Positions 445-15,443 of a stretch of DNA of 21,798 bases are shown one piece after another. Numbering within the stretch: position 1 is the stretch's first letter; each line of letters opens with the position of its first letter. The notes under the pieces are model-generated. The model ran no database searches. It was not told where the DNA came from and saw only the letters and a list, made by a program, of their open reading frames with translations. The DNA lies in the IMG/VR virus record IMGVR_UViG_3300022188_000412, positions 1-21,798 of that record; one strand, 5' to 3'. This DNA comes from a virus. The position numbers and the translations under genes are program-made.

Positions 445-473
445 TTGACAACTGGGGTTAGGTGTGATATAAT
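445..473 (+). promoter_or_regulatory. Consensus sigma-70/sigma-A promoter, rightward
   Basis: TTGACA at 445-450, a 17-bp spacer, then TATAAT at 468-473 with an extended -10 TG at 465-466. Transcription should begin near 480 and read into the small genes starting at 733. A related block, GGTTAGATGTGATATAGT, repeats about 50 bp downstream (507-523), with a -10-like TATAGT at 518-523 but no good -35. This is the best host-type promoter in the window and probably drives early expression. Confidence 0.8.
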
Positions 474-732: not shown

Positions 733-987
733 ATGATTACAGGAACTATTGTGTTAGAGGATATTAGTATCAGTTTTACAGCAGTGGGTAGCGCAAAGGG
801 AGAGAATAGAGAAGTATTATACACTATTTCCGATGCACTTTCAGATAAGTGCGAGACAAAAACTGTTGAACAAGAAAAGTTTTTCAAAACTCTTGCCATC
901 GCAGTACATAATGATGGAATGCCGGATTATAAGAAAGATTATGAAGATGCTGAAAGCATCCAGAGTTTGATAAGATGGATACCTTAA
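733..987 (+). CDS. Unknown small phage protein (84 aa), first gene of the early operon
   Basis: I do not recognise this 84-residue product. The start is fixed by AGAAGGAG at 720-726 before the ATG. It is mildly acidic in its C-terminal half (DYKKDYEDAES), has no obvious membrane segment or cysteine motif, and looks like a small soluble protein. It is the first gene downstream of the consensus promoter and sits between two RNA hairpins (689-712 and 989-1074), so it is probably among the earliest expressed genes. Such first genes are often host-takeover factors, but nothing in the sequence shows that here. Confidence 0.65.
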   Translation: MITGTIVLEDISISFTAVGSAKGENREVLYTISDALSDKCETKTVEQEKFFKTLAIAVHNDGMPDYKKDYEDAESIQSLIRWIP

Positions 988-988
988 A

Positions 989-1074
989 CTAATGGTGAGC
1001 AGAGCGAACAAGACAGGAATCGGTATCTGAATCGATATCAATCAGTTCCTGCCAAGCGTTCTGCTTACCATCAG
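989..1074 (+). ncRNA. Rod-like structured RNA or processing hairpin
   Basis: Arms 992-1006 and 1057-1071 form a 15-bp stem with no mismatch if G-U pairs are allowed (997/1066 and 1004/1059). A 7x5 internal loop leads to CAGGAA/TTCCTG (1014-1019 with 1046-1051), then GGTATC/GATATC (1022-1027 with 1034-1039) around TGAATC. All departures from Watson-Crick within the main stems are G-U in the plus-strand RNA, so the plus transcript is the likely functional molecule. It lacks tRNA landmarks and a T-run. It could be a small RNA or an RNase III-type cleavage site between genes. Confidence 0.55.
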
Positions 1075-1091
1075 CAACCATGGAGATGAAG

Positions 1092-1217
1092 ATGATTGAT
1101 CTATTCAGCACATACCAGGCAGAGGTTGAGCCAATAAAAGCAGAGCATGATAAGCGTTCTGAACTGGCTCAGATTATTAACGAACTATGTTTAATGTTTA
1201 AACGAAGGAAGAAATAA
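1092..1217 (+). CDS. Unknown very small protein (41 aa)
   Basis: Forty-one codons starting at the third of three in-frame ATGs (1080, 1086, 1092). The start at 1092 has GGAG at 1082-1085 with good spacing, while 1080 has no ribosome binding site. The product begins MIDLFSTYQAEVEPI and ends in a basic tail FKRRKK; it is predicted mostly helical. Its last codons overlap palindrome copy 2 (1189-1203). No homolog is recognised. Size alone makes this a moderate call. Confidence 0.4.
   Translation: MIDLFSTYQAEVEPIKAEHDKRSELAQIINELCLMFKRRKK
1189..1203. repeat. 15-bp palindrome copy 2, compensated variant
   Basis: GTTTAATGTTTAAAC, preceded by AACTAT. Relative to the consensus, C in the left arm is T and the matching G in the right arm is A, so symmetry is kept. 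It lies 15 bp before an ATG at 1219, followed by GAAGGAAG. Confidence 0.65.
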
Positions 1218-1218
1218 G

Positions 1219-1421
1219 ATGATAAACCAAAAAAGTTACATTGGACTCATCCTCCAAAATGCAGTTTCTGTGATGCCCAAGCCAAGTATGATGCACCAAC
1301 TAGCCATTGCACTGGAGCTTGAGCGTATATGTGTGAAGATTGTTTTAAAAGAGAAGGAGCTCCATTAAAACTATATACGGGCTATGAATTTATAGAAAAA
1401 GAGGAAAAGAATAATGTGTAG
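1219..1421 (+). pseudogene. Broken zinc-ribbon protein gene (frameshift plus in-frame TGA)
   Basis: The frame from 1218 encodes a convincing small zinc-ribbon protein: KPKKLHWTHPPKCSFCDAQ, then a CTGA stretch, a TGA stop at 1320-1322, then AYMCEDCFKREG and a tail ending at TAG 1419-1421. Two CxxC pairs flank the stop, and tryptophan is what I expect at the stop (TGG to TGA). The ATG at 1219, well placed after GAAGGAAG and palindrome copy 2, is one base out of frame; one extra G would restore M-D-K-P-K-K. In its own frame the ATG gives an unconvincing 49-aa product ending at 1368. I call it a gene with two lesions. Sequencing error is possible; general TGA recoding is unlikely because neighbours end in TGA. 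Confidence 0.55.
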
Positions 1422-1623
1422 AACAGAACAAGATAGACTAACAGAAATCAGAACAATGCGAATTCTTATCTATTCACCATTAGCAACCAGGGATAAGTAT
1501 AAACATAAGCGGGTAAGAGCAGAACATGCAGGAAAAGTGAAAATCTTCACCCCTGCAGAGATTCAGACCTATATCATACTATGTTCAAAAAATAAACAAA
1601 GTGTAAAAGGAGATAAAGAATGA
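1414..1623 (+). CDS. Unknown small basic protein (69 aa)
   Basis: Sixty-nine residues, rich in Lys/Arg, with a central stretch RILIYSPLATRDKYKHKRVR. The start follows GAGG (1401-1404) and overlaps the 3' end of the broken zinc-ribbon gene. Palindrome copy 3 (1583-1597) lies inside its 3' end, and its TGA overlaps the ATG of the next gene (ATGA), which implies coupled translation. It has no recognised domain. Because the C-terminal 15 residues are encoded by the palindrome and the next gene's ribosome binding site, that tail may not be constrained at protein level. Confidence 0.5.
   Translation: MCRTEQDRLTEIRTMRILIYSPLATRDKYKHKRVRAEHAGKVKIFTPAEIQTYIILCSKNKQSVKGDKE
1583..1597. repeat. 15-bp palindrome copy 3, degenerate
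   Basis: GTTCAAAAAATAAAC, with ACTAT upstream. The right arm has lost symmetry at one core position (G to A). It is followed by AAAGG and the gene at 1620. Confidence 0.6.
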
Positions 1624-2060
1624 GTAAAAGTTTCGTAACCAGTGTCCGCTGCGACTATCAGCACATTGCAGCTATTGGAAAGTTTTTAGAAAGTAAACAG
1701 ATGAAGCCTAAAACTAGAGGTAGAATTGCTTCTATTGCTATTAAGATATTAGCTGAGCATCTTCCTGTCGAGTTTCAAACCAACTCTCTATCACAAGCAG
1801 TCAATGATCTGGCTATTATGGGCTTTCAGACAGTTACACCTAAACAGCGTTATTTTAAAGTACTTAATAAGAATCTGGAAACAGAGCAAAAAGCAGCGCC
1901 AGAGCAGGCAGATCTGGTTAGCATGGTAGAAAAGATCAAAACAAACTTGGTTCAGGCAGAGACAGAGATACCTGTTAATGATGCAGAGTATAAGAAGCAG
2001 CTTAATAGTTTGCCTGATTTAATCGTAAGCGAAGAAGGAGAAACAGATGAAACAGATTAG
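1620..2060 (+). CDS. Unknown phage protein (146 aa)
   Basis: A 146-residue soluble protein starting after AAAAGGAG. Residues 1-50 contain a basic helical region (SKQMKPKTRGRIASIAIKILAEHL) that could bind nucleic acid. The C-terminal 60 residues are acidic and probably flexible, ending EEGETDETD. The domain is not recognised; a DNA-binding helical protein is only a guess from composition. It overlaps the preceding gene by 4 bases and the following small gene by 14, so it is part of a translationally coupled cluster. Confidence 0.7.
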   Translation: MSKSFVTSVRCDYQHIAAIGKFLESKQMKPKTRGRIASIAIKILAEHLPVEFQTNSLSQAVNDLAIMGFQTVTPKQRYFKVLNKNLETEQKAAPEQADLVSMVEKIKTNLVQAETEIPVNDAEYKKQLNSLPDLIVSEEGETDETD

Positions 2061-2214
2061 TAAAAAGAAGCTCATGTGCTGGAGGAAGATGATGCTGAAT
2101 CGCCCAGAACACCTAACCAGCGGAGAGATAAAAATCTACAATCAACAGTTTCTGGAAATGAATCAGATACTAATAGATCTTCAACTTCAAGCGGAAATAG
2201 ATAAACAAAAATAA
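2047..2214 (+). CDS. Unknown small protein (55 aa)
   Basis: A 55-codon ORF whose ATG lies inside the end of the previous gene, preceded by GAAGGAG (2033-2039). The N-terminus is strongly basic (MKQISKKKLMCWRKMM), followed by a helical Gln/Leu-rich segment (NQQFLEMNQILIDLQ). It ends directly before palindrome copy 4. It has no recognised family; size and basic charge suggest a nucleic-acid or protein-binding accessory factor, which is inference. Confidence 0.5.
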   Translation: MKQISKKKLMCWRKMMLNRPEHLTSGEIKIYNQQFLEMNQILIDLQLQAEIDKQK

Positions 2215-2218
2215 CTAT

Positions 2219-2233
2219 GTTCAAAAATTGAAC
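2219..2233. repeat. 15-bp palindrome copy 4, perfect
   Basis: GTTCAAAAATTGAAC, with ATAACTAT upstream and GAAGGAGGT immediately downstream. It lies exactly between the stop codon of one gene (2212-2214) and the start of the next (2249). Confidence 0.85.
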
Positions 2234-2248
2234 GAAGGAGGTAAGAAG

Positions 2249-2494
2249 ATGAACATTTATCTAATAACAATTCCAGATAATAAGAATATGTATGGTTCTT
2301 ATGAATCTGCAGTCGTAATTGCTTCTGATGAAGAAAATGCTCGTGCTATTCATCCATCAGGAAAAGACTGGAATGGAGAAGATTGTGAAAACTGGGCATG
2401 TATATCAGAGATAGATGTAGAGCTTTTAGGAGAAACAACTGCTGATACATCTTACTCTTCAGGTGATATTATTTGTGCCTTTTACTGGGAATAA
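2249..2494 (+). CDS. Conserved-type phage hypothetical protein (81 aa)
   Basis: The start at ATG 2249 is set by the near-ideal GAAGGAGGT at 2234-2242. An upstream TTG at 2228 is in frame but lies in the palindrome and has no ribosome binding site. The product reads MNIYLITIPDNKNMYGSYES, then SDEENARAIHPSG, and is acidic and rich in aromatic residues. The pattern of a short strand, then an alanine-rich DEENAR helix and IHPSG, resembles a small protein seen in many phage early regions, with no assigned function that I know. It is one of the genes under a perfect palindrome. Confidence 0.65.
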   Translation: MNIYLITIPDNKNMYGSYESAVVIASDEENARAIHPSGKDWNGEDCENWACISEIDVELLGETTADTSYSSGDIICAFYWE

Positions 2495-2503
2495 GGAGCT
2501 CTT

Positions 2504-2677
2504 ATGAATACTTATTGGCAAGAAATAATAGTTCTTAAAGAAGCTTATATTCAGATAAAAAAAGAACTAATTAGACTTTCTGAGAAACATAACATTCCTT
2601 ATTATGAGGTTGAAACAGATCTTAATAGAAAGTTAACCGATAATTCTTATAACATACAAGGAGCTTATTATGAATAA
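2504..2677 (+). CDS. Unknown small helical protein (57 aa)
   Basis: A 57-residue ORF with AAGGAG at 2493-2498 before ATG 2504. Its predicted helix, VLKEAYIQIKKELIRLSEKH, has hydrophobic heptad spacing, so it could form a short coiled coil. Its stop overlaps the ATG of the next gene at 2670 by 8 bases. It has no recognised family. The clean ribosome binding site and coupling to its neighbour support it being real. Confidence 0.55.
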   Translation: MNTYWQEIIVLKEAYIQIKKELIRLSEKHNIPYYEVETDLNRKLTDNSYNIQGAYYE

Positions 2678-3005
2678 TAAAGATGTCCAATCCCTTCACA
2701 GGGAAAACTTCCTGCTTATTAAAAAGATTCAAAGAGCTGCAGGGGAACTCGGTCAACTCCGAATAGCGATTAGAGAAAAAGAAGATCTACAACAAAAAAG
2801 TTTAGAACAGCAGAAAGAGCTATGTAAAAAGATCTATATATTAGAAGGAAAAGTAACTGTCCTGCTATCTTCTAAACAAGGCGATTGGAAGAAGAAAGAA
2901 GCAACTAAACAAGTGAAGCAGATCCAAAGCATGTCCGGTTCTGAACAGGATAAAATGCTCGAAAAGCTGCTTCTTATTAGATCAAAGAGACAACAGCTTG
3001 CATGA
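2670..3005 (+). CDS. Unknown coiled-coil protein (111 aa)
   Basis: A 111-residue highly charged protein with long predicted helices. Residues 8-65 have Leu/Ile heptad spacing and no proline, with many Lys, Glu and Gln, as in a coiled coil. The C-terminal third is basic (SKQGDWKKKEATKQVKQ). The ribosome binding site is AAGGAG just before the ATG. It is the last gene of the small-gene cluster before a 140-base gap containing a strong RNA hairpin. Function is unknown. Confidence 0.65.
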   Translation: MNNKDVQSLHRENFLLIKKIQRAAGELGQLRIAIREKEDLQQKSLEQQKELCKKIYILEGKVTVLLSSKQGDWKKKEATKQVKQIQSMSGSEQDKMLEKLLLIRSKRQQLA

Positions 3006-3024
3006 TCAGCATGGTCAGGGCAAA

Positions 3025-3062
3025 AATCATAGATGGTGAGAAAATCCTTGCCATCTATGGTT
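3025..3062 (+). promoter_or_regulatory. 16-bp RNA stem-loop between genes
   Basis: Arms 3025-3040 and 3047-3062 pair over 16 positions with three G-U pairs (3027/3060, 3037/3050, 3038/3049) and a six-base loop AAAATC. No T-run follows, so it is not a standard terminator. Its left arm shares ATGGTGAG (3033-3040) with the rod RNA (992-999). A processing site or stability element for the transcript of the 3148 gene is plausible. A weak small hairpin (TGGC/GCCA, 3090-3102) follows. Confidence 0.55.
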
Positions 3063-3147
3063 CCTGATGATAATATGGGTTTATTGAAATGGCATTTTGC
3101 CACCTTAAGTTTTTAAATCTTAATCTTTTAAAGAAGGAGTAAAAAGT

Positions 3148-3615
3148 ATGAGCAAGAAAAATAAAAATGACGTTGAAAAGGCGGACGCTACAGCGGTAGA
3201 TACAAAAACAGAAGTCGTAGAAGTCGTAGAAGAAGCTGTAATGGTTTACGATATGGTTAATCCAGATGCTGAGAATCCTGGCTATCTGGCTGTTGAAGCG
3301 AAGAAAGAAGGAAAAGCAGCTCGTTTATTCTATAATTTTGGTAAAGATTTGGCAGAAATGACTGAACTGTTTGGTGATACAGTTGTATTCTCCCAGGCAA
3401 GAGCTCAGATGAAGATCAAATTGCAAGCCGGTATGAGAAGTTATCTGGTTGCCGGACAGAACGTAAAAGATCTTGCCACAAAATTCATACCTGGTGTTGC
3501 TCTTGAGCGTATCCCGACTGATATGAATAAAGCCAGTGAGGAATATTTCACCGGTCTTTCTGATGATGAACAGGATGCCATGATCAAGCGCCTAATGGAA
3601 GCGAAGAATAAATAA
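3148..3615 (+). CDS. Phage hypothetical protein with acidic N-terminus (155 aa), likely highly expressed
   Basis: A 155-residue protein starting after GAAGGAG. Residues 1-35 are low complexity and acidic (VDTKTEVVEVVEEAV). Residues 50-155 are a compact helical region including KDLAEMTELFGDTVVFSQAR. Similar proteins occur in phage replication regions, but I know no assigned function. It stands alone between a processing-type hairpin (3025-3062) and a strong intrinsic terminator (about 3646-3678), an arrangement that suggests a separate abundant transcript. An ssDNA- or structure-binding role is possible but not shown. Confidence 0.7.
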   Translation: MSKKNKNDVEKADATAVDTKTEVVEVVEEAVMVYDMVNPDAENPGYLAVEAKKEGKAARLFYNFGKDLAEMTELFGDTVVFSQARAQMKIKLQAGMRSYLVAGQNVKDLATKFIPGVALERIPTDMNKASEEYFTGLSDDEQDAMIKRLMEAKNK

Positions 3616-3644
3616 TCTGATTTAATTCTGATCGATTAACAAAA

Positions 3645-3678
3645 CTCAGGAAGAGCTTAACCGTTCTTCCTGATTTTT
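3645..3678 (+). terminator. Intrinsic terminator
   Basis: TCAGGAAGA (3646-3654) pairs perfectly with TCTTCCTGA (3665-3673), extendable by a G-U and a C-G pair, followed by TTTTT (3674-3678). An A-run precedes the stem. It ends transcription after the 3148-3615 gene. Confidence 0.85.
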
Positions 3679-3701
3679 AAAAAGTTCCTGAAAGGGTGAA
3701 A

Positions 3702-4568
3702 ATGAGAAAAAGACAAGGTATCATGTTATGCTATCCCTATGAGGAAAGACGATTGACTGACCCTAAGTTCGGTTGGTCTTTCCCCCTTATTATCCAACCT
3801 AAACTTGACGGAGAACGCTGCAGGATTATCTGTCGAGGTACAGAACCTCCAATTATTCTAAGCTCTACAGAACGAAGAATCTTTTCTGTCCCACATATTT
3901 CAAAAGCAATTCAAGAGGCAAATCTCACTGATCTGGAGCTTGATGGTGAGCTTTATCTTCATGGGGAAACTTTTGAAACTATTAGTGGGATTGTTAGCAG
4001 GACAGAGAATCTTCATCCTGATCACGAACAGATGGAGTTTCACTGTTTTGATATAATTAACAAACAGTCTCAGATAGAACGCTCTTTATATCTAATGCAA
4101 GATCTTCCAGATATAAAATATATAAAGAAAGTAGATTTTCAGGTTATAACTGAGCTGAAAGATATTCCTGTCTTTTTTGATCTTTATTTGGATCTTGGTT
4201 ATGAGGGAATTATTTTTCGTCATCTGAAAGCTTCTTATGAGCGTAAACGATCTCGATTCATAATGAAGTTCAAACCAAAAAAGACTGATATTTATCGTAT
4301 CTTATCTGTCATTGAAGGCTCTGGTGAGCATACTCAAATGGTAGGTGCTTTTCTTTGTGCAGGTAATGATGAAACAGTTTTTAAAGTCGCTGCAGGGGAA
4401 TTTACTTATGCTCAACGGGCAGCTATTTGGGAGATGCGAAAAGCAGTCATTAACAATTATCTAAAAATCAGCTATCAAAACATAACAGCACATGGAGTTC
4501 CTCGTTTCGGGCTGGCTAAACAAATTATCCAGGCGCCTGAACAGAATGAATATGAATCTATCTTATAA
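3702..4568 (+). CDS. ATP-dependent DNA ligase
   Basis: A compact ATP-dependent DNA ligase (288 aa) that seals nicks during replication and recombination. Visible motifs are I, QPKLDGER with adenylated lysine K34; III, ELDGELYLHG (79-88) followed by SGIVSR (95-100); IV, EGIIFR (168-173); and V, FIMKFKPKKTD (186-196). An OB-fold-like C-terminal part (from about 200) follows, and there are no extra DNA-binding or BRCT domains. This fits small phage ligases. I start at ATG 3702, with AAAGG at 3691-3695, rather than GTG 3696. It is the first gene after the terminator at 3645-3678, so it needs its own promoter or readthrough; no clear promoter is visible. Confidence 0.92.
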   Translation: MRKRQGIMLCYPYEERRLTDPKFGWSFPLIIQPKLDGERCRIICRGTEPPIILSSTERRIFSVPHISKAIQEANLTDLELDGELYLHGETFETISGIVSRTENLHPDHEQMEFHCFDIINKQSQIERSLYLMQDLPDIKYIKKVDFQVITELKDIPVFFDLYLDLGYEGIIFRHLKASYERKRSRFIMKFKPKKTDIYRILSVIEGSGEHTQMVGAFLCAGNDETVFKVAAGEFTYAQRAAIWEMRKAVINNYLKISYQNITAHGVPRFGLAKQIIQAPEQNEYESIL

Positions 4569-4573
4569 ACTAT

Positions 4574-4588
4574 GTTCAATTTTTGAAC
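4574..4588. repeat. 15-bp palindrome copy 5, perfect arms
   Basis: GTTCAATTTTTGAAC, with AAACTAT upstream and AAAGAGAAAGG downstream. It lies between the ligase stop (4568) and the next start (4607). Confidence 0.85.
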
Positions 4589-4606
4589 AAAGAGAAAGGT
4601 TTTCTT

Positions 4607-4906
4607 ATGCCAAAAATATATATCGTTAACAAATCTATCCATGATTACTCATCAGCAGAGATCTATGGAGAGCTAGTTTTCCTCTCAGAAGGTAATTTGC
4701 GAAAATTTTCTACTAGCAGGGCATATAGAAAATTCATGCCTATTCTAAGGAATAGTTCAGAGAAAGATTATCTAATCATATCAGGTCTTCCCATGCTGAA
4801 TCTTGTAGCGGCATTTATTCTCATCCGCAAACATAAGCGTTTGAATATGCTGCTTTTTGATCCGTCGCAAGGGAAGAAGAAATATATTGAAAGAATTCTT
4901 AAATAA
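4607..4906 (+). CDS. Conserved-type phage hypothetical protein (99 aa)
   Basis: The start is ATG 4607 after AGAGAAAGG; an in-frame TTG at 4583 lies in the palindrome and is rejected. The sequence begins MPKIYIVNKSIHDYSSAEIYGELVFLSEG and contains a hydrophobic core (YLIISGLPMLNLVAAFILI), then LNMLLFDPSQGKKKY. It resembles a small alpha/beta protein family common in phage early or replication regions that I know only as uncharacterised. The central hydrophobic run is probably buried, since a glycine-proline break and flanking strands fit a fold better than a membrane helix. Confidence 0.65.
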   Translation: MPKIYIVNKSIHDYSSAEIYGELVFLSEGNLRKFSTSRAYRKFMPILRNSSEKDYLIISGLPMLNLVAAFILIRKHKRLNMLLFDPSQGKKKYIERILK

Positions 4907-4917
4907 AAGGAGAAAAA

Positions 4918-5193
4918 ATGGAAATTATCGCAAAAACAGAAAAAGGTTGTTTAATTCATGCGACAGATATTGAAGTCCAAGCAATATTAAAAGCAGTTTC
5001 AGGAATCCTACCTGAAAAATTAAATATAGGGCAGAAAATTCCAGCCATAGACTATGCTTCAACAATTATAAAAGTAAAAGCGTTAAAAGATAATTATATT
5101 TATACGTTGATGATAGATAAAATTAACTCTTTTAACAAAGAAGTAACTATTTTAACTGAGACTGTACTTAAAGCAAGTGAAATAGAAATATAA
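4918..5193 (+). CDS. Unknown small protein (91 aa)
   Basis: A 91-residue soluble protein starting after AAAAGGAG, 11 bases after its neighbour's stop. It has alternating strands and helices (ATDIEVQAILKAVSGILPEK), no cysteine clusters and no membrane segment. The domain is not recognised. Its position between the ligase-linked gene and the PD-(D/E)XK nuclease suggests an accessory role in DNA metabolism, by context only. Confidence 0.6.
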   Translation: MEIIAKTEKGCLIHATDIEVQAILKAVSGILPEKLNIGQKIPAIDYASTIIKVKALKDNYIYTLMIDKINSFNKEVTILTETVLKASEIEI

Positions 5194-5206
5194 GGAGAAA
5201 ACTATC

Positions 5207-6214
5207 ATGCCTTACTATGATGAATCTCTAACATACCATGTTCCTCCTCATCTAACCTGGAATATACAGGACGCTACAAAAGTAAAATGTTTTATGGAAT
5301 GTAATCGGAAATATTTCTTCGAATATACTATGGGCTGGAGAAACCAAGGAGCTAATATTCATCTGATCTTTGGTAGCGCTTGGCATGAAGCTCTGGCACA
5401 TCTTTATATGTCAGATTTTTCTGCTGCTAACATCAAGATCGCTTATTATGAACACTTCTTACCTTATTATCGTAAACATATTTTTGAGGAAGATGAGGAG
5501 ATCTATTCTCCAAAAGTTCCAAAACGAGCGTATCTGGCTCTCGCATACTACGCCACCATGAGGAAGATCTTTATGCGAGATTACAAAGTGGTTTATCACA
5601 ATGATGAACCTATGGTTGAGATCGGGGGAACTGTTAACCTGACTGACGAACATGAGATGGGTTTTAAGATGGATACTGTTGTTCAAGGTCCTCATGGTAT
5701 CGTTTCTCTGGAGCATAAAACTGGTTCGAGTACCTGGAATTGGGCGGATCAATGGGCGTTAAACATGCAAATGGGAGTTTATTCTCACGTTCTTTACTGC
5801 CTTTATCCTGCAGAACAAGTCAGGGGAGTTATTATAGACGGAACTTTTTTCAAAAAGACGAAAGATAATGCGAAAAGTGATGCGAAAGACCCTTTTCGTC
5901 ATTTTGATTTTATGGAAGTTCCTATTTATATGTCTTCCAATAGCATGAATCAGTGGCTCAACAATGCTATATGGTGGTTAGATCAAATCAAGGAACAGTT
6001 CAACGTGCTGGCGGAAAGCTCTGATTCTACTCCTATCATGCACGCTTTTCCCATGAACTCCACAAGCTGCTCAAACTGGTCTGGTTGTCAATATCATGAT
6101 CTCTGTCGAGCATGGGCAAATCCGTTACAGTATACAGAAAATGTTCCGATTGGTTTTCAGATAGATTTTTGGAATCCTTTGGAAGAAGATATCAGAGTAG
6201 AATTAACCGTATAA
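5207..6214 (+). CDS. PD-(D/E)XK nuclease, Cas4/RecB-like with four-cysteine cluster
   Basis: A 335-residue RecB/Cas4-type nuclease. The active site is visible as H60 (GSAWHEAL), D156 (GFKMDTVV), then E169 and K171 (VSLEHKTGS), with a QxxxY-like helix (NMQMGVYSHVLY). An N-terminal cysteine (C28, also C32) and C-terminal C288, C294 and C300 (spacing CX5CX5C) match the layout of the Fe-S cluster that staples AddB/Cas4 domains. It probably resects or processes DNA ends together with the downstream ATPase and putative ssDNA-binding protein. AGGAG precedes the ATG. It is not next to any CRISPR array. The family call is firm, the Fe-S cluster likely, the precise substrate unknown. Confidence 0.88.
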   Translation: MPYYDESLTYHVPPHLTWNIQDATKVKCFMECNRKYFFEYTMGWRNQGANIHLIFGSAWHEALAHLYMSDFSAANIKIAYYEHFLPYYRKHIFEEDEEIYSPKVPKRAYLALAYYATMRKIFMRDYKVVYHNDEPMVEIGGTVNLTDEHEMGFKMDTVVQGPHGIVSLEHKTGSSTWNWADQWALNMQMGVYSHVLYCLYPAEQVRGVIIDGTFFKKTKDNAKSDAKDPFRHFDFMEVPIYMSSNSMNQWLNNAIWWLDQIKEQFNVLAESSDSTPIMHAFPMNSTSCSNWSGCQYHDLCRAWANPLQYTENVPIGFQIDFWNPLEEDIRVELTV

Positions 6215-6218
6215 CTTC

Positions 6219-6233
6219 GTTTAAATTTTGAAC
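6219..6233. repeat. 15-bp palindrome copy 6, wobble variant
   Basis: GTTTAAATTTTGAAC, with ATAACTTC upstream and AGAGGTG downstream. The left-arm T would pair with G as a wobble in RNA. It lies between the nuclease gene and the gene at 6249. Confidence 0.7.
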
Positions 6234-6248
6234 ACAGAGGTGATTAGA

Positions 6249-6461
6249 ATGAAAGATGAAAAAGATAGAATTCGTATTCATTTTATTTTAGAGAAAGAAA
6301 TAGTCGCTAATTTTGAAAGTTTTTATATTCCTTTAATTGGGGATTATCTAAATCTTAGTATATGGGATTCTTCTTTTGAACATTATCAAGTAAAAAAACG
6401 TGAGTGGGTATATGCAGTTGGAGAATTATTAAAAATAAATATAACAATTAAAGTAGTATAA
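6249..6461 (+). CDS. Unknown small protein (70 aa)
   Basis: A 70-residue protein with ATG 6249 chosen because AGAGGTG lies at 6236-6242; a TTG at 6228 in frame lies in the palindrome. It begins MKDEKDRIRIHFILEKEI, and beta strands are predicted. It has no recognised family. It sits between the PD-(D/E)XK nuclease and the AAA_24 ATPase, so may belong to that recombination unit, by position only. Confidence 0.6.
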   Translation: MKDEKDRIRIHFILEKEIVANFESFYIPLIGDYLNLSIWDSSFEHYQVKKREWVYAVGELLKINITIKVV

Positions 6462-6474
6462 AAAGGAGGTATCA

Positions 6475-7329
6475 TTGGCATCTTTACTTAGTATCAAGAA
6501 AAAAGCAGCCCAAATAAAGCAGATGTATGACGAAGATCCCAGGAATCAGACGTTTAACGCTATTATTCACGGACCTATCAAGACAGGTAAAACTTCTCTT
6601 TTACGCACTTGTCCGAAACCTGTTTTTGTCCACTCTTTTGATCCAGGGGGAACGGATGTTCTCAAGGACATGATAGAAACAGGAGAGGTTCTGGTTGATA
6701 CAAGTTTTGAGAAAGAAGATCCTTTTAAACCTAAAGCTTGTAGATCATGGGAGGATTCTTTTAACGATCTTTACAAGCAAGATTTCTTCTCTCATGTAGG
6801 AACCTTTGCCATTGACAGTATGACGACCTGGGCACAGACTATCATGTACGAGGTCATCAGGCGGGCAGTTGCTTCTCCACGGGGGAAAAAGGCAGGAAGA
6901 GTTAACGGAGGTTCTCCACAGGAAAATGACTGGCTTCCGCAGATGAGTTTTATCGAGAATTATATGCGAAAGTTCCTCTCCCTGCCTTGCCATTGCATTC
7001 TCCTTGGTCATAGCGACCTGCCGAAAGATCGAGAAGGAAACCCAGTTGGAGATCTGGGGATAATGATAACTGGGAAGCTCCGGGAACGTATCCCTGCTCT
7101 TTTTTCTGAAATCTATTATCTGCGAATAAAAGATTATAAGAAGGAAACGAGAGAGCTTCTCATCAAACCCACTTATGGAATCCAGGTTGGCACGAGACTT
7201 GGGAATGGAGGTAAGTTAGAGAAAACAGAACCACCGGATATAGGGAAGATTATGAGAAAAGTAGGTCTTGATACAACAAGTAAACCTTTATTTAATGAGA
7301 TAATAATAGAACAAGAGGAGACAAGCTGA
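6475..7329 (+). CDS. AAA_24/Sak4-like RecA-fold ATPase
   Basis: A 284-residue P-loop ATPase. Walker A is HGPIKTGKTS (residues 32-41) and Walker B is FAIDSMTTWA (111-120). The following segment ILLGHSDLPKDREGNPVGD (from about 176) has the family's sensor-like layout. This matches phage AAA_24 proteins, several of which are Sak4-type single-strand annealing recombinases working with an SSB. The start is TTG 6475, not ATG: AAGGAGGT at 6463-6470 fixes it and no ATG is close. Its TGA overlaps the next ATG (TGATG), coupling it to the putative ssDNA-binding protein. Recombinase activity is inferred. Confidence 0.82.
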   Translation: MASLLSIKKKAAQIKQMYDEDPRNQTFNAIIHGPIKTGKTSLLRTCPKPVFVHSFDPGGTDVLKDMIETGEVLVDTSFEKEDPFKPKACRSWEDSFNDLYKQDFFSHVGTFAIDSMTTWAQTIMYEVIRRAVASPRGKKAGRVNGGSPQENDWLPQMSFIENYMRKFLSLPCHCILLGHSDLPKDREGNPVGDLGIMITGKLRERIPALFSEIYYLRIKDYKKETRELLIKPTYGIQVGTRLGNGGKLEKTEPPDIGKIMRKVGLDTTSKPLFNEIIIEQEETS

Positions 7330-7757
7330 TGAGTTTTTTAGATCTGAGTAATGAAAATCTGGATGATGCGAAAGAGCCAAAATGCGTAGATGAGGGAGAA
7401 TATACTCTGAGCATTACTGATTGGAAAACAGATGAGGAGGGAAAAGTAGAAAAAAGAGATCTTAACGATAATCCTTTCATCATGCCTGTGCTGGAAGTCA
7501 TTGAGTGCGAGGAAGCAGAATATGCTAAACCTATCACTCATTTTCTCCGCCTACCTTATCCTGAGATGAGTAAAAAAGATCGAAATGATGCCCAGTGGAA
7601 TCTGAAATGCTTCTTTGATGCCTTTGAAATAGATTATACTCAGCGTCTGGATTTCGATGAAACTCTGGGAAAAACCTGCGAAGCTCTGCTGACTGTCCAG
7701 CCTGATACTGGTTACGGAGAGCAGAATCGTGTTCAGCGTTTTATTAATCCGAGATAG
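7329..7757 (+). CDS. Putative ssDNA-binding protein, DUF669-like
   Basis: A 142-residue protein with the acidic N-terminus, EGEYTLSITDWKTDEEGK core and late FINPR typical of DUF669-like phage proteins. These are encoded directly after the AAA_24/Sak4 ATPase and are thought to act as its ssDNA-binding partner. Here the genes overlap by one base, the same order. It is predicted as an OB-like beta-rich fold with a central helical insert (NDAQWNLKCFFDAFEI). A strong terminator follows directly. Family assignment rests on pattern and context; no ssDNA-binding signature is unequivocal. Confidence 0.6.
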   Translation: MSFLDLSNENLDDAKEPKCVDEGEYTLSITDWKTDEEGKVEKRDLNDNPFIMPVLEVIECEEAEYAKPITHFLRLPYPEMSKKDRNDAQWNLKCFFDAFEIDYTQRLDFDETLGKTCEALLTVQPDTGYGEQNRVQRFINPR

Positions 7758-7764
7758 TTAACAG

Positions 7765-7792
7765 AAGGGGGAGGAGAAATCTTCCCCTTTTT
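7765..7792 (+). terminator. Intrinsic terminator
   Basis: AAGGGG (7765-7770) pairs with CCCCTT (7784-7789), then a bulged G, then AGGA with TCTT (one G-U) closing a GAAA loop, followed by a T-run ending at 7792. It ends the ligase-to-ssDNA-binding operon. Confidence 0.85.
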
Positions 7793-7805
7793 AAAAGGAG
7801 AAAAC

Positions 7806-7949
7806 ATGGGAGATACATATATAGCTTAGCTCAACCTGAAAGAAATTTATTCTAAAATTGCATCTAAACTAAAAGTGCCAATAAAAAGCAATCCAAATTG
7901 CTGCCATGTGTGTGAAGTTTATATGCAGGGAGAAAAAGGAAGCAGATGA
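7806..7949 (+). pseudogene. Small gene interrupted by in-frame TAG
   Basis: AAAAGGAG precedes ATG 7806. The frame reads MGDTYIA, then TAG (7827-7829), then LNLKEIYSKIASKLKV, NCCHVCEVYMQGEKGSR and TGA at 7947-7949, which overlaps the ATG of the next gene (ATGA). The good ribosome binding site, coding-like sequence after the stop and conserved-style junction suggest an intact 47-aa gene until recently. One C-to-T change in CAG (Gln) would create the TAG. Readthrough, sequencing error or true decay all fit. Without readthrough only seven residues are made. Confidence 0.5.
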
Positions 7950-8218
7950 TAGATAGAATAGTAGAAATAATTATTGCATGTTGTATTATAGTTAGTATTT
8001 ATATTTCTATTTATGGTTTCTATCAACTCTGGACAAGAACAGAGAGACAAGAACAGCTTCAAGCATATGAAATTAAAATCGTTATTCTTAATGATAAAAT
8101 CTACTGGCTTAAACAAACTAACAAACTATCAAATGTTCTGGAACAACTTCTCACTCCAATGCAGATAGATGAACTTGAGTTAATGAGTGAGCAGTTGAGA
8201 CAGAGGAAGGAGAAATAA
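7946..8218 (+). CDS. Small membrane-anchored coiled-coil protein (90 aa)
   Basis: A single N-terminal hydrophobic segment (residues 6-26, IIIACCIIVSIYISIYGF region) is followed by a charged helical tail with heptad-like spacing (residues 35-90). No signal-peptidase site is evident, so it is probably an inner-membrane protein with a cytoplasmic coiled coil. Such proteins may tether replication or act against the host, but nothing specific can be read. GGAAG precedes the ATG, and its TAA overlaps the next ATG (TAATG). Not recognised as a holin: only one transmembrane segment and no lysis neighbours. Confidence 0.65.
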   Translation: MIDRIVEIIIACCIIVSIYISIYGFYQLWTRTERQEQLQAYEIKIVILNDKIYWLKQTNKLSNVLEQLLTPMQIDELELMSEQLRQRKEK

Positions 8219-8463
8219 TGCTAGATGAATATCAAGAGTTATTGACAGTAGTAGAGGAAATAAAAGATATACTGCGTCCAAAAGAAGAACTAACAAATCA
8301 AGCCCAACTTATCAAGCTTATCAGAACAATTACTTACTTTGGAAAGGAAAGTTGGCTCGAAAATGTTATTCAGCACTCACTACCTGAAGGAATAAATAAG
8401 TTTGGTAATGTAAACCAAATCAAAATTAAAACAGAAACAGAAACAGAAAAGGAAAAGGAATGA
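8218..8463 (+). CDS. Unknown small acidic protein (81 aa)
   Basis: An 81-residue helical protein starting MLDEYQELLTVVEEIKDIL, coupled to the previous gene by a TAATG junction. The C-terminal tail KTETETEKEKE is low complexity, encoded by a tandem ACAGAA repeat (three copies near 8430-8446) that may vary in length. The stop overlaps the next ATG (ATGA). It has no recognised domain. Confidence 0.6.
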   Translation: MLDEYQELLTVVEEIKDILRPKEELTNQAQLIKLIRTITYFGKESWLENVIQHSLPEGINKFGNVNQIKIKTETETEKEKE

Positions 8464-8909
8464 AAGAAAGTGCTTGCACTGGCTGCCCATTGGAAAAACA
8501 GAGCAAAAATACTCAAATTTGTTCTTTCTGTCTTCGTCGCATCCAAGCAGTGGAAGGAAAACCTATAACCGCTCCTTATCCAACACAAGCAGATGTTGAA
8601 AAAGCATGTCAAATTCTTCGCTCTTGTTATGATATGGATAAAGATCCATTAGTAACTGGATCTAAATCTTCTGTTTGCGAAAGCTGTGGAGGAGAACTCT
8701 CTTGTTATTCTGCTTCAAACCTCTGTCGAAGATGTTATCTTAGATCAGGTGAAGTATGCCGGACAGAAACATGTGAAAACAAACTTTCGCCTCATAATAA
8801 ATCAGGTTTTTGCCGAGATTGTGGGAGGATTATTCATGAAAGAAAAAAGTTAGGATTAGATCCTTATGCACCTGTTAAAAAGAGAAAAAGGGTAAAAGGA
8901 TATGAATAA
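8460..8909 (+). CDS. Three-zinc-ribbon protein (149 aa)
   Basis: A 149-residue cysteine-rich protein. Pairs are C6/C9 with C21/C24, C73/C76 with C89/C92, and C100/C105 with C118/C121, that is three likely zinc-binding modules. Residues 25-70 form a linker with TQADVEKACQILRSCYDMD. The C-terminus is strongly basic (KLGLDPYAPVKKRKRVKGYE), which fits DNA or RNA binding. Phage multi-zinc-ribbon proteins can be transcription factors or host RNA-polymerase-binding proteins; here that is a guess. The start follows AAAAGGAAAAGG, with ATGA coupling to the previous gene. Confidence 0.75.
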   Translation: MKESACTGCPLEKQSKNTQICSFCLRRIQAVEGKPITAPYPTQADVEKACQILRSCYDMDKDPLVTGSKSSVCESCGGELSCYSASNLCRRCYLRSGEVCRTETCENKLSPHNKSGFCRDCGRIIHERKKLGLDPYAPVKKRKRVKGYE

Positions 8910-8913
8910 CTAT

Positions 8914-8928
8914 GTTCAAAAAATGAAC
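8914..8928. repeat. 15-bp palindrome copy 7
   Basis: GTTCAAAAAATGAAC, with AATAACTAT upstream and AAAGAGGAGG downstream. It lies between the zinc-ribbon gene stop (8909) and the start at 8947. Confidence 0.85.
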
Positions 8929-8946
8929 AAAGAGGAGGAAGCTAAT

Positions 8947-9192
8947 ATGAATATGGAAGAACTTAAAAAAATAGATCTAGTAAAAATGGCAGAAATGGGA
9001 GAACTCCTTAAAACAGCCTATAACTGTTTTACTAATATTTATGTATCTTTTATAGGTCATGAGCCGCCTATTATAGAATATTGGCTCTATATTGAAAAAG
9101 ATATCTACGGTCAATATCATTATTCTTGGGAGAGCCTTTGCATGGCAGTTGTAAAACTTCTTAAAGATAAAAAGGAAGAAAATGAAAGATAA
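8947..9192 (+). CDS. Unknown small protein (81 aa)
   Basis: Starts at ATG 8947, because AGAGGAGG lies at 8931-8938; an ATG at 8902 in frame would translate the palindrome and lacks a suitable site. The product begins MNMEELKKIDLVKMAEMGEL and contains an aromatic central region (IIEYWLYIEKDIYGQYHYSW). It may be a small alpha-helical adaptor. No homolog is recognised. It overlaps the next gene by 11 bases. Confidence 0.6.
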   Translation: MNMEELKKIDLVKMAEMGELLKTAYNCFTNIYVSFIGHEPPIIEYWLYIEKDIYGQYHYSWESLCMAVVKLLKDKKEENER

Positions 9193-9376
9193 AAGACATA
9201 GAGTAACTATTGATATAACTCTTGAACAGGAAAAGTTCCTCTCTCAGCTTCCTTATGGAAAGAAGAAAGAACTCTTTGGCTCTATTATAGATCTTCTAAT
9301 CTACTTAACCAGTCTTCATGGAGGTCGAATCTTTCAACGTATTATAGCACAGAAAATAGATATAAAAATCTTATAA
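9182..9376 (+). CDS. Small putative DNA-binding protein, RHH-like (64 aa)
   Basis: A 64-residue basic protein beginning MKDKRHRVTIDITLEQEKFL. The RVTIDITLEQEKFLSQL segment looks like the strand-plus-helix start of a ribbon-helix-helix or related small DNA-binding fold, followed by KKKELFGSIIDLLIYL. The match is by pattern only. AAGGAAG precedes the ATG, and the gene overlaps its upstream neighbour. It could bind the palindrome family, since RHH dimers bind palindromes, but no sequence evidence ties them. Confidence 0.45.
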   Translation: MKDKRHRVTIDITLEQEKFLSQLPYGKKKELFGSIIDLLIYLTSLHGGRIFQRIIAQKIDIKIL

Positions 9377-9384
9377 GGAATCTT

Positions 9385-9687
9385 ATGGATATTCGCTTTT
9401 TCAGAAAAAGTATCTCTCAAATGGATGATGATGAAAGTTTTAAACATATCAGATATCTACGTTCTCTGCGAAGAGAGATGAAAAAAATTAAAGAAAAAAA
9501 AGTCAAGATTAAAACAAAGGGGAAGAAGAAAACTATCATTCTATCTGCTGCTACTGATCTTGATAAACTTTCAGCAGAAGAGAAAAATATACTTCTTCAG
9601 AAAATGTTAAAACTTAAAAGAATTAAAGGAGAAAAGAAAGATGCAAAAAAGTCCAGCGTTAAAAATATCTCAAATAGTAGTTCATGA
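9385..9687 (+). CDS. Unknown highly basic protein (100 aa)
   Basis: A 100-residue protein dominated by lysine and arginine, with a central stretch MKKIKEKKVKIKTKGKKK and a helical C-terminal half (AEEKNILLQKMLKLKRIKG). It probably binds nucleic acid non-specifically. AAGGA at 9376-9380 precedes ATG 9385. Its last 47 bases overlap the start of the ParB-methyltransferase gene in another frame, so its C-terminal tail (SSVKNISNSSS) may be dictated by that gene. Confidence 0.55.
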   Translation: MDIRFFRKSISQMDDDESFKHIRYLRSLRREMKKIKEKKVKIKTKGKKKTIILSAATDLDKLSAEEKNILLQKMLKLKRIKGEKKDAKKSSVKNISNSSS

Positions 9688-11023
9688 TATTCTGCTCTCT
9701 GATATCGAAGTAGGGGAACGTTTTAGGAAAGATATGGGAGAACTTAATATTCTTGCTGCTTCGATAAAAAAGGACGGTCTGATACATCCTATTGCAGTAA
9801 GTAAGAATAAGGGAGAGAAACCATATCGTCTTATAGCAGGGGGTCGTCGTCTTGCTGCTATTACTCATATATGGAAAACATCTCATCCCAAAAATCCAGA
9901 GCAGCATAAAGTTTCTTGCAGAATTTTTGATGAAGATATACCAGAACTCCAACTTCGTGTTCTGGAATTTGCAGAAAATCTTTATCGTCACGATATGTCC
10001 TGGCAGGAAGAATGCAATTTGAAAGATCGTATTCACACTCTCCAACAGCAGATTCACGGTAAGAAACAATCAACATCTCCAGATGCTCCTGGGTGGTCGT
10101 TGCAAGATCTTTCTAAAATGACTGGGAAATCTAAAGGTTCTCTCTCTGGTGATCTCGCTCTTGCAAAAGTCATGAAAGATGTTCCTGAAGTAGATTGGTC
10201 TAAATTTGCAACAAAGAATGATGCACAGAAAGCATTAAAACTGGTAAAGAAAACGGTCAAACAATCCACAGATGCGGCTATAGCAAAGAAGATTATTGGA
10301 GAAGGGGATAGCCTGAAGAAGAAGCTTATAAACTCTTATCATATTATAGATTTCTTTGAAGGAGTGAAAAAACTCGGTAACGCTACAATGGATTTTATAG
10401 AGATCGATCCTCCTTATGCTATTGATTTGGAGAAACAGAAAAAAGATTATAATTATTCTGGCTATAATGAGATATCGCAAGCAGATTATCCTACTTTTAT
10501 GCAAAATCTTTTCACTGAATGCTACAGAGTTCTCAAACCTAATCGCTGGATGGTATGTTGGTTCGGACCTGATCCCTGGTTCGAGAATATTCATCAGTGG
10601 CTGGAAGATGCTAAGTTTAAGAATAAAAAAATCCCTTCTATCTGGGTGAAAGAAACTCTGGATAATACTGATCATATCAGCGCTCAATGTATGAGTCCTA
10701 ATCATGTTCTAGCAGCCGGTTACGAAATGTTTTTTCTTGCTCGTAAAGGTTCTCCCCAACTTAACAAACCAGGAAGTACAAATGTCTTTGGACATAGACC
10801 TATTCCTTCTCAGCAGAAAGTTCATCCAACAGAGCGTCCGATAGAACTTATAACAGATATTCTCAATACCTGCACAGCACCTGGCTCTAACATACTTGTC
10901 CCTTTTGCAGGAAGTGGAAACACTTTGATTGCAGCCGCCCAGAATCAAATGGTTTCAATCGGTTTTGATTTGACAGAGGCTTATTTTGAGAGTTTTATAA
11001 TTAAAGTGCATCGCTTATTTTAA
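9641..11023 (+). CDS. ParB-domain / DNA methyltransferase fusion
   Basis: A 460-residue fusion. Residues 20-125 are a ParB-like N-terminal domain: GERFRKDMGEL, AASIKKDGLIHPIAV, and the box RLIAGGRRLAA (63-73). Residues 150-180 form a helix-turn-helix-like segment (WSLQDLSKMTGKSKGSL). Residues 225-460 are a DNA methyltransferase with DPPY (256-259) before PFAGSGNT (421-428), i.e. the beta order, adding methyl to N6 of adenine or N4 of cytosine. HPTERPIELI is the usual preceding segment. It likely protects phage DNA or marks a site; the ParB-like part may add DNA binding or CTP/nuclease activity. The target is unknown. GGAGAA precedes the ATG. Confidence 0.88.
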   Translation: MQKSPALKISQIVVHDILLSDIEVGERFRKDMGELNILAASIKKDGLIHPIAVSKNKGEKPYRLIAGGRRLAAITHIWKTSHPKNPEQHKVSCRIFDEDIPELQLRVLEFAENLYRHDMSWQEECNLKDRIHTLQQQIHGKKQSTSPDAPGWSLQDLSKMTGKSKGSLSGDLALAKVMKDVPEVDWSKFATKNDAQKALKLVKKTVKQSTDAAIAKKIIGEGDSLKKKLINSYHIIDFFEGVKKLGNATMDFIEIDPPYAIDLEKQKKDYNYSGYNEISQADYPTFMQNLFTECYRVLKPNRWMVCWFGPDPWFENIHQWLEDAKFKNKKIPSIWVKETLDNTDHISAQCMSPNHVLAAGYEMFFLARKGSPQLNKPGSTNVFGHRPIPSQQKVHPTERPIELITDILNTCTAPGSNILVPFAGSGNTLIAAAQNQMVSIGFDLTEAYFESFIIKVHRLF

Positions 11024-11028
11024 TCTTC

Positions 11029-11043
11029 GTTCAAAAAATGAAC
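11029..11043. repeat. 15-bp palindrome copy 8
   Basis: GTTCAAAAAATGAAC, with AATCTTC upstream and ACAGTG downstream, followed by TAAGGAGG and the polymerase start. It lies in the 48-base gap between the methyltransferase and polymerase genes. Confidence 0.8.
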
Positions 11044-11071
11044 ACAGTGCAATCATTAAGGAGGAATATCT

Positions 11072-13555
11072 ATGAAACTTCCAAAAGCTTTCACAACTGT
11101 TCCTCCTACTCATAACATAACAGCCCCTTATGTGGGAGTGGGAGAACAGCCGAACTATCAAGATGTTAAAAAAAGAAAAATGTTTGACGGGGCTGTAGGG
11201 AGAGAGCTTGATGAAGATCTTGCAGCCGCTGATCTGAGCAGACCGTTAATCTATCTTACAAATGTCATCAAGGATAAGGATAAATATAAAGAACATTACA
11301 TTCAACTATATAAAAATAAAACTCTGCTGAAGGAACCAATCATCAGTGAACGTGGAATAGAATATCTAAAATTCCTCCAGTGGGAACTTGCCCAAACCAA
11401 AGCTGTTTATTTCATAGCCTTTGGAGGGATTGCTCTTTTTGCTTTAACGGAACGAACAGGTATTCAAAAATGGCGAGGGAGTGTTCTAGATTGTACACTG
11501 GTTCCTGGAAGAAAAGTGATTCCTATTCTTCACCCTGCAACTGTTGTCCCTCCCCAGAATCAGTTCTTAAACAAGCGTCTTATTATTTTTGATTTAAAAC
11601 GAGTGAGGGAATATACAGAAAAACTACATGTACCTACAAAAAGATCGGTTGTTATAGAACCTTCTTTCAAACAGGTACTGGATTTTCTTTCTTTCTGTAA
11701 AACAAAAGGGCTTAATGGGAGCAGGATAAGTTATGACATCGAGGTCTATATGAATCGTGTTCATAAACAAGTAAGCTGTATTGCTTTCGCTATTAACAAG
11801 CAATCAATCTGCATACCTTTTGCTGATGGGAAGGGAGATTATTTCTCCATTCAACAAGAGGTAGATATATGGAAAAAGATTGCAGAAATTCTTGAACATC
11901 CAAAGATTAAGATTTGCGGGCAGAACCTGGTTTTTGATAATCATTTTCTGCTTCGCACATATGGGATAGTAACTACTAACATAGACGATACTATGGTCGC
12001 CCAGAATATTCTTATGTCTGATTTCCCTAAAGGTCTAGATTTCATCACATCAGTCTGGACTGATCATCCTTATTATAAAGCAGATGGGAAAGCATTCTTC
12101 TCTGGTCACGGTGTCTATCAGAAGTTCTGGCAGTATAATGCAAGTGATGCTCATATCTGTGATGAAGCTTTTCCTAAACAGCGAGAAGAAATAACAAAAC
12201 TGGGATCTCTCGCTGCTTATCAGCGCCAAGTTAAGATCATCGAACCCTTAGTTTATATGATGGAAAGAGGGATTAAAGTAAATGTAAAACTGATGGAACA
12301 AGAAGGTCGAGCATATAAACAGAAAATAGAAGAATTTCAAGATGAACTCAATCAGCTTGCAGGAAAACCTTTAAACGCTAAGAGCCCTAAACAACTAAAA
12401 GAATATTTCTTGGAAGAAAAAGGAATAAAACCATATAAAAAAGCAGGAAAGATAACCTATAACGATGATGCTATGAAGCGTCTTATCAGAAAAGGTTTCC
12501 ATGAAGCTAAACTGATTCAGCAGATTAGAAAATACACTAAACTTCGTTCTACTTATCTGGACATAAATAAGATTGATGAGGACGGAAGGATCAGATGTTC
12601 ATATAATCCTGCAGGAACTCGTTATAGTCGCATCTCATCAAGTAAAAGTATTTGGGGAACGGGTAATAACATGCAAAACTTCCCCCATCATATTCAGAAG
12701 TTTTTAGTTCCTGATAAAGGTTATGTATACTACGCTTTCGATTTAAGCCAAGCGGAGAATAGAATAGTTGCTTATGTCGGAGAAGTAATAGATATGATTG
12801 AATGCTTCGAGACAGGCGCAGATGTTCATGCTAAAACTGCCCGAATCATTATGAAGACTTTTTTTGGAGAAGAAAAAGCAAAACAAATATCAGTAGAAGA
12901 ACTTGCTCCTGTCGGGGACGGTTCTCATAAGTGGCGAGATTGGGGGAAAAAGGCCAATCATGGCTTTAACTACGACTGGGGATTCAAGAACTTTGCATTA
13001 GCTAATGAGATTCCTGAAAATGAGGGAAAATTTATTTACACTGCTTATCATAATCTTTATCCTGGTGTACAGCAATCTTATCATACTTATATTAAAGCTT
13101 GTCTTCGTTCTTCTCGTATCCTGACAAATCTCATGAAAAGAAAAACTCTTTTTCTAGGTCCTATTATAGGAGAAAAAGCTAACGAGACTTTTAAGGAAGC
13201 TTATTCTTGCATTCCACAGGGGACAGTTGGAGATATGGTTAACGAATATGGGTTAAATTATATCTATTATAATCAAAATATTTTTCGCCCAGTAGAACTT
13301 CTCCGTCAAGTCCACGATGAGATTGGTTTTCAGATTCCTCTTTCTCTCCCCTGGTCTGATCATGTCAAGCTCCTCACATTGATTAAGAAGAAACTTGAAA
13401 CTCCTTTGACAACTCACAATGGAAGAACATTCATAATTCCTGCTGATCTAACAATGGGAATTCATCTGGATAAAAATAATGGATACGAAGTAGATTTCTC
13501 GAATGCTCTGGAAGCGGAACTTCAAAAGGGATGGAGAACTTTAAATGAGCTATAA
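11072..13555 (+). CDS. Family-A DNA polymerase with N-terminal UDG-like domain
   Basis: An 827-residue replicative polymerase. Residues 20-175 resemble a family-4-type uracil-DNA glycosylase: VGEQP (23-27), FDGAVGRELDEDL, YLTNVIK, FGGIALFAL, and HPATVV (154-159), but without the usual Fe-S cysteines. Residues 215-370 are a DEDDy 3'-5' exonuclease: D222/E224, D289 (QNLVFDNHF) and Y355-D359 (YNASD). Residues 390-827 are a family-A polymerase: motif A DLSQAE with D557, O-helix R622, K626, H630 and Y634, and motif C HDE (748-750). H630 sits where most family-A enzymes have Phe or Tyr. AAGGAGG precedes the ATG. It overlaps the next gene by 11 bases. Confidence 0.92.
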   Translation: MKLPKAFTTVPPTHNITAPYVGVGEQPNYQDVKKRKMFDGAVGRELDEDLAAADLSRPLIYLTNVIKDKDKYKEHYIQLYKNKTLLKEPIISERGIEYLKFLQWELAQTKAVYFIAFGGIALFALTERTGIQKWRGSVLDCTLVPGRKVIPILHPATVVPPQNQFLNKRLIIFDLKRVREYTEKLHVPTKRSVVIEPSFKQVLDFLSFCKTKGLNGSRISYDIEVYMNRVHKQVSCIAFAINKQSICIPFADGKGDYFSIQQEVDIWKKIAEILEHPKIKICGQNLVFDNHFLLRTYGIVTTNIDDTMVAQNILMSDFPKGLDFITSVWTDHPYYKADGKAFFSGHGVYQKFWQYNASDAHICDEAFPKQREEITKLGSLAAYQRQVKIIEPLVYMMERGIKVNVKLMEQEGRAYKQKIEEFQDELNQLAGKPLNAKSPKQLKEYFLEEKGIKPYKKAGKITYNDDAMKRLIRKGFHEAKLIQQIRKYTKLRSTYLDINKIDEDGRIRCSYNPAGTRYSRISSSKSIWGTGNNMQNFPHHIQKFLVPDKGYVYYAFDLSQAENRIVAYVGEVIDMIECFETGADVHAKTARIIMKTFFGEEKAKQISVEELAPVGDGSHKWRDWGKKANHGFNYDWGFKNFALANEIPENEGKFIYTAYHNLYPGVQQSYHTYIKACLRSSRILTNLMKRKTLFLGPIIGEKANETFKEAYSCIPQGTVGDMVNEYGLNYIYYNQNIFRPVELLRQVHDEIGFQIPLSLPWSDHVKLLTLIKKKLETPLTTHNGRTFIIPADLTMGIHLDKNNGYEVDFSNALEAELQKGWRTLNEL

Positions 13556-14774: not shown

Positions 14775-15075
14775 GATAAAACAAACAGCAACTATTATGC
14801 ATACTCTTTTTTGTGAGAAGGAACATGAAGAAGATATGATGAAATATGAAACGACTGAGAAGTGTCTTTTCTATCTGGAGCAAAGCATAGATCTAACATG
14901 GGAACTTGAAGCTCATCAGGAATGGTTGAAACAGGCTCATATGTTGGTTAAAATATCAGGTCCTATGGATTCAACAGATGTTCTGAAAGATTTGATAAAA
15001 GTTTATAATATAGCAAAACAGTTTAAAAAAATTAACGTAAAGCTTTTAGAATTTTTAAAAATCTTAATAACTTAG
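14767..15075 (+). CDS. Phage hypothetical protein (102 aa)
   Basis: A 102-residue helical protein with the segment MHTLFCEKEHEEDMMKYETT and YYLEQ-like ECLFYLEQSIDLTWELEAHQEWL. This pattern, a short MHTLFC motif then EWLK, recalls an uncharacterised family of phage proteins near replication genes; I know no function. AGAGGTGG lies upstream of the ATG, directly after palindrome copy 9. It overlaps the previous gene by 8 bases. Confidence 0.6.
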   Translation: MNKIKQTATIMHTLFCEKEHEEDMMKYETTEKCLFYLEQSIDLTWELEAHQEWLKQAHMLVKISGPMDSTDVLKDLIKVYNIAKQFKKINVKLLEFLKILIT

Positions 15076-15087
15076 AAAGGAGAAACT

Positions 15088-15258
15088 ATGCCGTTTGATG
15101 AAGACCCACAAGCAACAAGAGAAAGTTATCCCTGTCCTTGTGGAGGAATTGTTATGAAAGATGATGATAAGATGTTCTGGGAATGTGATAGTTGTGATTT
15201 TAGACGCTTAATATTAACAGTGAAAAAAGGAGAATATGACAGATCTAAAAAAACTTAA
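15088..15258 (+). CDS. Small zinc-ribbon protein (56 aa)
   Basis: A 56-residue ORF with AAAGGAG before ATG 15088. Cysteines at 16 and 18 (PCPCGG) and at 33 and 36 (WECDSCDF) form a zinc-ribbon arrangement, with basic residues after it (RRLILTVKKGEYDRSKKT). It resembles small phage zinc-ribbon proteins. It is intact, unlike the two broken cysteine-rich small genes elsewhere in the window. It overlaps the next gene by 23 bases in another frame. Confidence 0.65.
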   Translation: MPFDEDPQATRESYPCPCGGIVMKDDDKMFWECDSCDFRRLILTVKKGEYDRSKKT

Positions 15259-15415
15259 GGCCTTACTACAGAATTTTGGAATTGAATTTGAAGAAGAGAA
15301 TAAACTAATTACTTGTTCTACAGGAGCAAGAAAGATAGAAGGTTACTCATGTTTTTATGTTGAATTTGTTTTTAATAAAAAAGAACAATTTGAAACTATG
15401 GGAATTTATGAATAA
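15236..15415 (+). CDS. Unknown small protein (59 aa)
   Basis: A 59-residue ORF with AAAAAAGGAG before ATG 15236. It begins MTDLKKLKALLQNFGIEFEE and has a compact alpha-beta look (SCFYVEFVFNKKEQFETMGIYE). This short, helix-then-sheet shape is common in small phage adaptor proteins. No family is recognised. It starts inside the zinc-ribbon gene and ends before the gene at 15444. Confidence 0.55.
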   Translation: MTDLKKLKALLQNFGIEFEEENKLITCSTGARKIEGYSCFYVEFVFNKKEQFETMGIYE

Positions 15416-15443
15416 TAATTTACAACAAACTAAAGGAGTCCCA

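Follow-up and report, generated by a model that had tools for sequence, protein, structure and literature searches.

Genetic context of the hairpin

The window analysed here is a 21,798-nucleotide stretch of DNA from an uncultured phage (IMG/VR record IMGVR_UViG_3300022188_000412, positions 1 to 21,798). Genes are co-directional on the plus strand from 733 to 16,817, and are then met by an opposing gene of 1473 aa. The gene order, successively a ligase, a nuclease, a Sak4-like ATPase, a ParB-methyltransferase, a DNA polymerase, a primase and the large opposing gene, agrees with that of Desulfofustis phage LS06-2018-MD01, the host of which was predicted to be Desulfofustis (PMC10370329), and the phage described here is related to it.

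The early operon is headed by a sigma70-type consensus promoter (445-473, plus strand; TTGACA-17-TATAAT with an extended TG, 12/12 match), which is conserved in two related loci, L083 and L084. The leading gene, orf84 (733-987, plus strand, stop codon at 985-987), encodes 84 aa that gave no match in Pfam or PHROGs. It is followed by a candidate small ORF of 41 aa (1082-1216, plus strand), with a Shine-Dalgarno motif (GGAG, 1082-1085) and an ATG at 1092, for which no homologue was found. The gap between these two ORFs is occupied by a hairpin, at positions 989-1074 of the plus strand, which starts directly downstream of orf84 and stops approximately 8 nt short of the Shine-Dalgarno motif. Located between co-directional ORFs and downstream from a consensus promoter, the hairpin would be transcribed as part of the operon.

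Structure and stability of the hairpin

An earlier note on this DNA had described a rod-like RNA composed of a 15-bp basal stem and two inner stems, all of which are real. In the plus-strand fold, the basal stem pairs 992-1006 with 1057-1071, the middle stem pairs 1012-1020 with 1045-1053 (7-bp core, 1014-1020/1045-1051) and the 6-bp apical stem pairs 1022-1027 with 1034-1039, closing a loop at 1028-1033. The term rod is fair, despite two internal loops (one 5x4 and one 1x5). When the sequence was folded in a 261-nt context, pairing probabilities in the basal stem were 0.80-1.0, and two additional pairs (989/1074 and 990/1073) were formed by the plus RNA across the A991/C1072 mismatch that they flank.

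The fold energy of the 86-nt element was -37.0 kcal/mol (z -5.9), and none of 10,000 dinucleotide shuffles was as stable, the lowest reaching -32.3. Among all 90-nt windows on both strands, the hairpin had the lowest energy and its own minus strand was among the next-lowest. Window-wide, stability alone is not overwhelming as evidence beyond chance, because 1 of 20 whole-window shuffles held a 90-nt stretch near the energy of the hairpin (-36.4). Stems of at least 15 bp with at least 7 G/C per arm, on the other hand, were expected 0.08 times per window (mean of shuffled copies). The hairpin is real and exceeds chance.

Wobble pairs in the two strands

The departures from perfect pairing had been described as G-U only in the plus RNA, and taken as a sign of selection on the sense strand. 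The three G-U pairs in question (997/1066, 1004/1059 and 1023/1038) are indeed present on the plus strand, and a fourth, U1020-G1045, forms in one register only. However, the plus strand also holds three A-C oppositions, A991/C1072, A1013/C1052 and C1021/A1040; these become G-U in the minus RNA, whose fold pairs all three. Three plus-strand G-U pairs (four with U1020-G1045) versus three in the minus strand is what is expected without strand preference: the departures are not confined to G-U pairs of the sense RNA, and the argument for sense-strand selection must be abandoned. The two strands are also nearly equal in fold energy, -37.0 for the plus strand versus -35.7 for the minus strand. The plus-strand wobbles were the only ones noticed because the plus-strand fold registers these as pairs but leaves the others as gaps; counting just the G-U pairs of that fold gives a misleading impression of strand selection.

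We also counted wobbles in hairpins from ten loci, with a strand-symmetric search that treated G-U and A-C alike and with gene maps made of mechanical ORF calls on one strand. Hairpins in gene gaps held 24 G-U versus 10 A-C, as compared with 30 versus 30 in hairpins within genes. With the count limited to the window, L083, L084 and L077, where the gene maps are most reliable, the gap bias shrinks to 9:5. The 24:10 bias speaks for a role of hairpins of this kind, in general, as sense RNA; it does not rescue the strand claim for the hairpin itself.

The balance of imperfections between strands, both of which fold, is also consistent with an action as DNA, where a protein of the phage or of its host would bind the inverted repeat as an operator, a replication site or a packaging site. 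The arms of the hairpin have ATGGTGAG/CTTRCCAT in common with a second gap hairpin (3025-3062, plus strand; 16 bp with G-U pairs), such an 8-mer being shared in 0.17% of arm shuffles, and a separate palindrome family occurs in the gaps of the phage. But the common 8-mer was selected after the fact, and the arms are offset by the two internal loops and thus form no tight dyad. The element is moreover present in a single copy, within the operon rather than at a promoter. All together, a DNA site appears unlikely.

Searches for the hairpin in other genomes

No homologue of the hairpin DNA was found in phages or in plasmids. Patterns built on the arms returned 66 chance-like matches in viral_contigs, none of them similar across the rod, and a strict pattern returned none in genome_contigs (84,980 prokaryote genomes). 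Thus, in searches of phages, related loci, viral_contigs and genome_contigs, no relative was found to retain the rod. There was no second copy in the window or in the record, and an element with one copy in the record does not belong with the REP- or MITE-type repeats. Rfam yielded no match at the gathering score nor, for positions 700-1300, any with an E of 1 or less.

An element that is absent from all relatives, and whose surrounding genes form a variable block, might be a neutral or selfish leftover, either a lineage-specific inverted duplication or a small mobile hairpin in a variable early region. All six imperfections in paired columns (6/6) are of the transition type, as in a decaying palindrome. 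In addition, a wider pattern based on the tips of the rod had one match in 2.9 million viral contigs, at 1614-1696 of an unrelated contig (L085). This match is a gene-gap hairpin with a perfect outer stem, nearly equal in length to the rod and with the same TGGTGAGCAG/CTGCTCACCA tips. However, the similarity of the two interiors is not significant (p 0.055), and by a rough estimate about 5 chance matches to the tip pattern are expected in viral contigs; we regard the likeness as a probable coincidence. A leftover is further disfavoured by the lack of a second copy in the window, by the fact that no target duplication was seen and by the empty search of prokaryote genomes, and we consider it quite improbable.

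The earlier note had also suggested a discrete small RNA. A regulatory RNA processed from the rod, or started near it, would agree with the compact and stable fold, but no promoter was found at its 5' end and no terminator signal after it; with neither an Rfam match nor conservation, the suggestion is unsupported and such an RNA is very unlikely.

Absence of a U-tract after the stem

No U-tract directly follows the stem, where CAGCAACC is found instead, and the hairpin was rejected as an intrinsic terminator on these grounds. Likewise, it was not among the terminators listed by a scan limited to loops of 3-8 nt. A terminator or attenuator that reduces transcription beyond orf84 would nevertheless suit a position after the leading gene, where L083 has a hairpin with a terminal T-run, and it could act through Rho-dependent or pausing effects. 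Against this, no other promoter of comparable match was found behind the rod in the plus-strand genes scanned (to 4000). We therefore find it improbable that the hairpin serves to lower transcription of the genes behind it.

Hairpins at leading early genes of related loci

Searches with orf84 returned a single locus, L002, in viral_contigs and none in genome_contigs or phages. The rod is absent from L002, but a perfect 15-bp hairpin lies there 7 bases past the stop codon of the orf84 homologue. L083 and L084 are related to the window through orf155 (61-62%), and L083 also has a homologue of orf146 (35%); a scan for relatives with orf146 returned none. The leading genes of L083 and L084 differ from those of the window, and in both loci a hairpin (398-431 in L083, 1201-1236 in L084) lies just after the leading gene or genes and is the longest, or among the two longest, of the gap hairpins of its locus. 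In L084 the gene that it follows is the third small one rather than the first. Hence each of the three related loci has a strong hairpin, unrelated to the rod, at the matching position: directly behind the orf84 homologue in L002, and behind the leading gene(s) of the early operon in L083 and L084. Because of its terminal T-run, the L083 hairpin could be a terminator, and the four hairpins do not necessarily have a common function. A long stem of another locus (L006, 10282-10364) was set aside, since it lies inside the primase gene.

To compare positions, all gene ends within each locus were ranked by how strongly the 90 nt beyond them fold, expressed as a z-score. The end of the leading early gene(s) or of orf84 ranked 2/32 in the window, 1/16 in L083, 1/15 in L084 and 1/11 in L002, with unrelated sequences in each case. 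In the window, only the gene end that closes the operon (16,817) outranked that of orf84. This positional pattern was spotted after the fact, during the analysis, and it is absent at the first genes of phage LS06. We tentatively suggest, while rather doubting it, that leading early genes of this phage group are swapped as cassettes, each with its own unrelated strong 3' hairpin, so that the position of a boundary element would be conserved and its sequence would not. If the pattern holds, it would mean that phages can replace the sequence of an mRNA boundary element, together with the gene in front of it, and still retain such an element where the early operon begins.

The orf84 product itself is 75% identical to its homologue at 3001-3246 of L002 (the best segment giving 72%), with an identical and unbroken C-terminal stretch. 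No homologue of the DNA polymerase or of the primase was found in L002. Possibly, orf84 is an early gene that moved horizontally.

A putative mRNA boundary element

We propose, with about even confidence, that the rod is an intercistronic hairpin that marks a processing or stability boundary in an early polycistronic phage mRNA, as an RNase III site and/or a block to 3' exonucleases. This is the most likely reading of a structure that exceeds chance, fills a gene gap, lacks a U-tract and is absent from relatives. Plus-strand transcription would start at the 445-473 promoter and, as RNA, the rod would set the leading gene orf84 apart from those behind it, through cleavage of the duplex by host RNase III and/or arrest of 3'-5' exonucleases at the stem. 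The orf84 message would thereby gain its own 3' end and lifetime, and expression of orf84 or of the downstream genes could be affected. The earlier suggestion that the sense transcript carries an RNase III site or a regulator still is the best reading, from the position, size and shape of the element, whereas the G-U-only evidence offered for it was wrong.

The rod is most likely an ordinary kind of element, already known in type. Intergenic REP-type hairpins are stable stems that lie just past stop codons within operons and block 3' exonucleases. The rod resembles them in its stability and position, but it is present in single copy and outside the REP sequence family. RNase III needs no more than a 12-bp stem capped by a tetraloop (PMC8708148), and the rod, with its 15-bp basal stem and its 7- and 6-bp stems, is long enough. 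Processing of phage mRNA by RNase III has a precedent in the R1.1 site of T7 (PMC8708148). Like R1.1 and the other sites of T7 early mRNAs, the rod is an irregular hairpin in which mismatches or bulges interrupt the stem; unlike them, it belongs to a different phage, probably with a host of another phylum, shows no sequence relation, is longer (86 nt) and is a predicted rather than an established substrate. Precedents in Escherichia coli are the intergenic RNase III hairpins of yajQ/panE, ahpF and pflB (PMC5371410), where cleavage was demonstrated, whereas that of the rod is presumed. Cleavage of such hairpins can stabilise neighbouring mRNA and, at yajQ/panE, closely similar structures are possible from either strand (PMC5371410), as in the rod.

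Additional features of the window

Other features of the window were recorded. A zinc-ribbon-like frame at 1218-1413 (plus strand) contains an in-frame TGA and no in-frame start codon; it could be a pseudogene, an assembly error or a case of recoding. At 7806-7949 (plus strand), a small frame with a good Shine-Dalgarno motif has TAG as its eighth codon. Near the left end (80-390), TGTAACC/GGTTACA repeats flank a long (TA)n tract and a C-run, making this region a candidate replication origin with iterons. Finally, a palindrome near CTATGTTCAAnnnnTTGAACAAAG is present in eight copies on the plus strand (at 1185, 1579, 2215, 4570, 6215, 8910, 11025 and 16829), mostly in gene gaps. Similar copies occur in L083, L005, L006 and L007, and the palindrome resembles an operator or else a motif in the mRNA.
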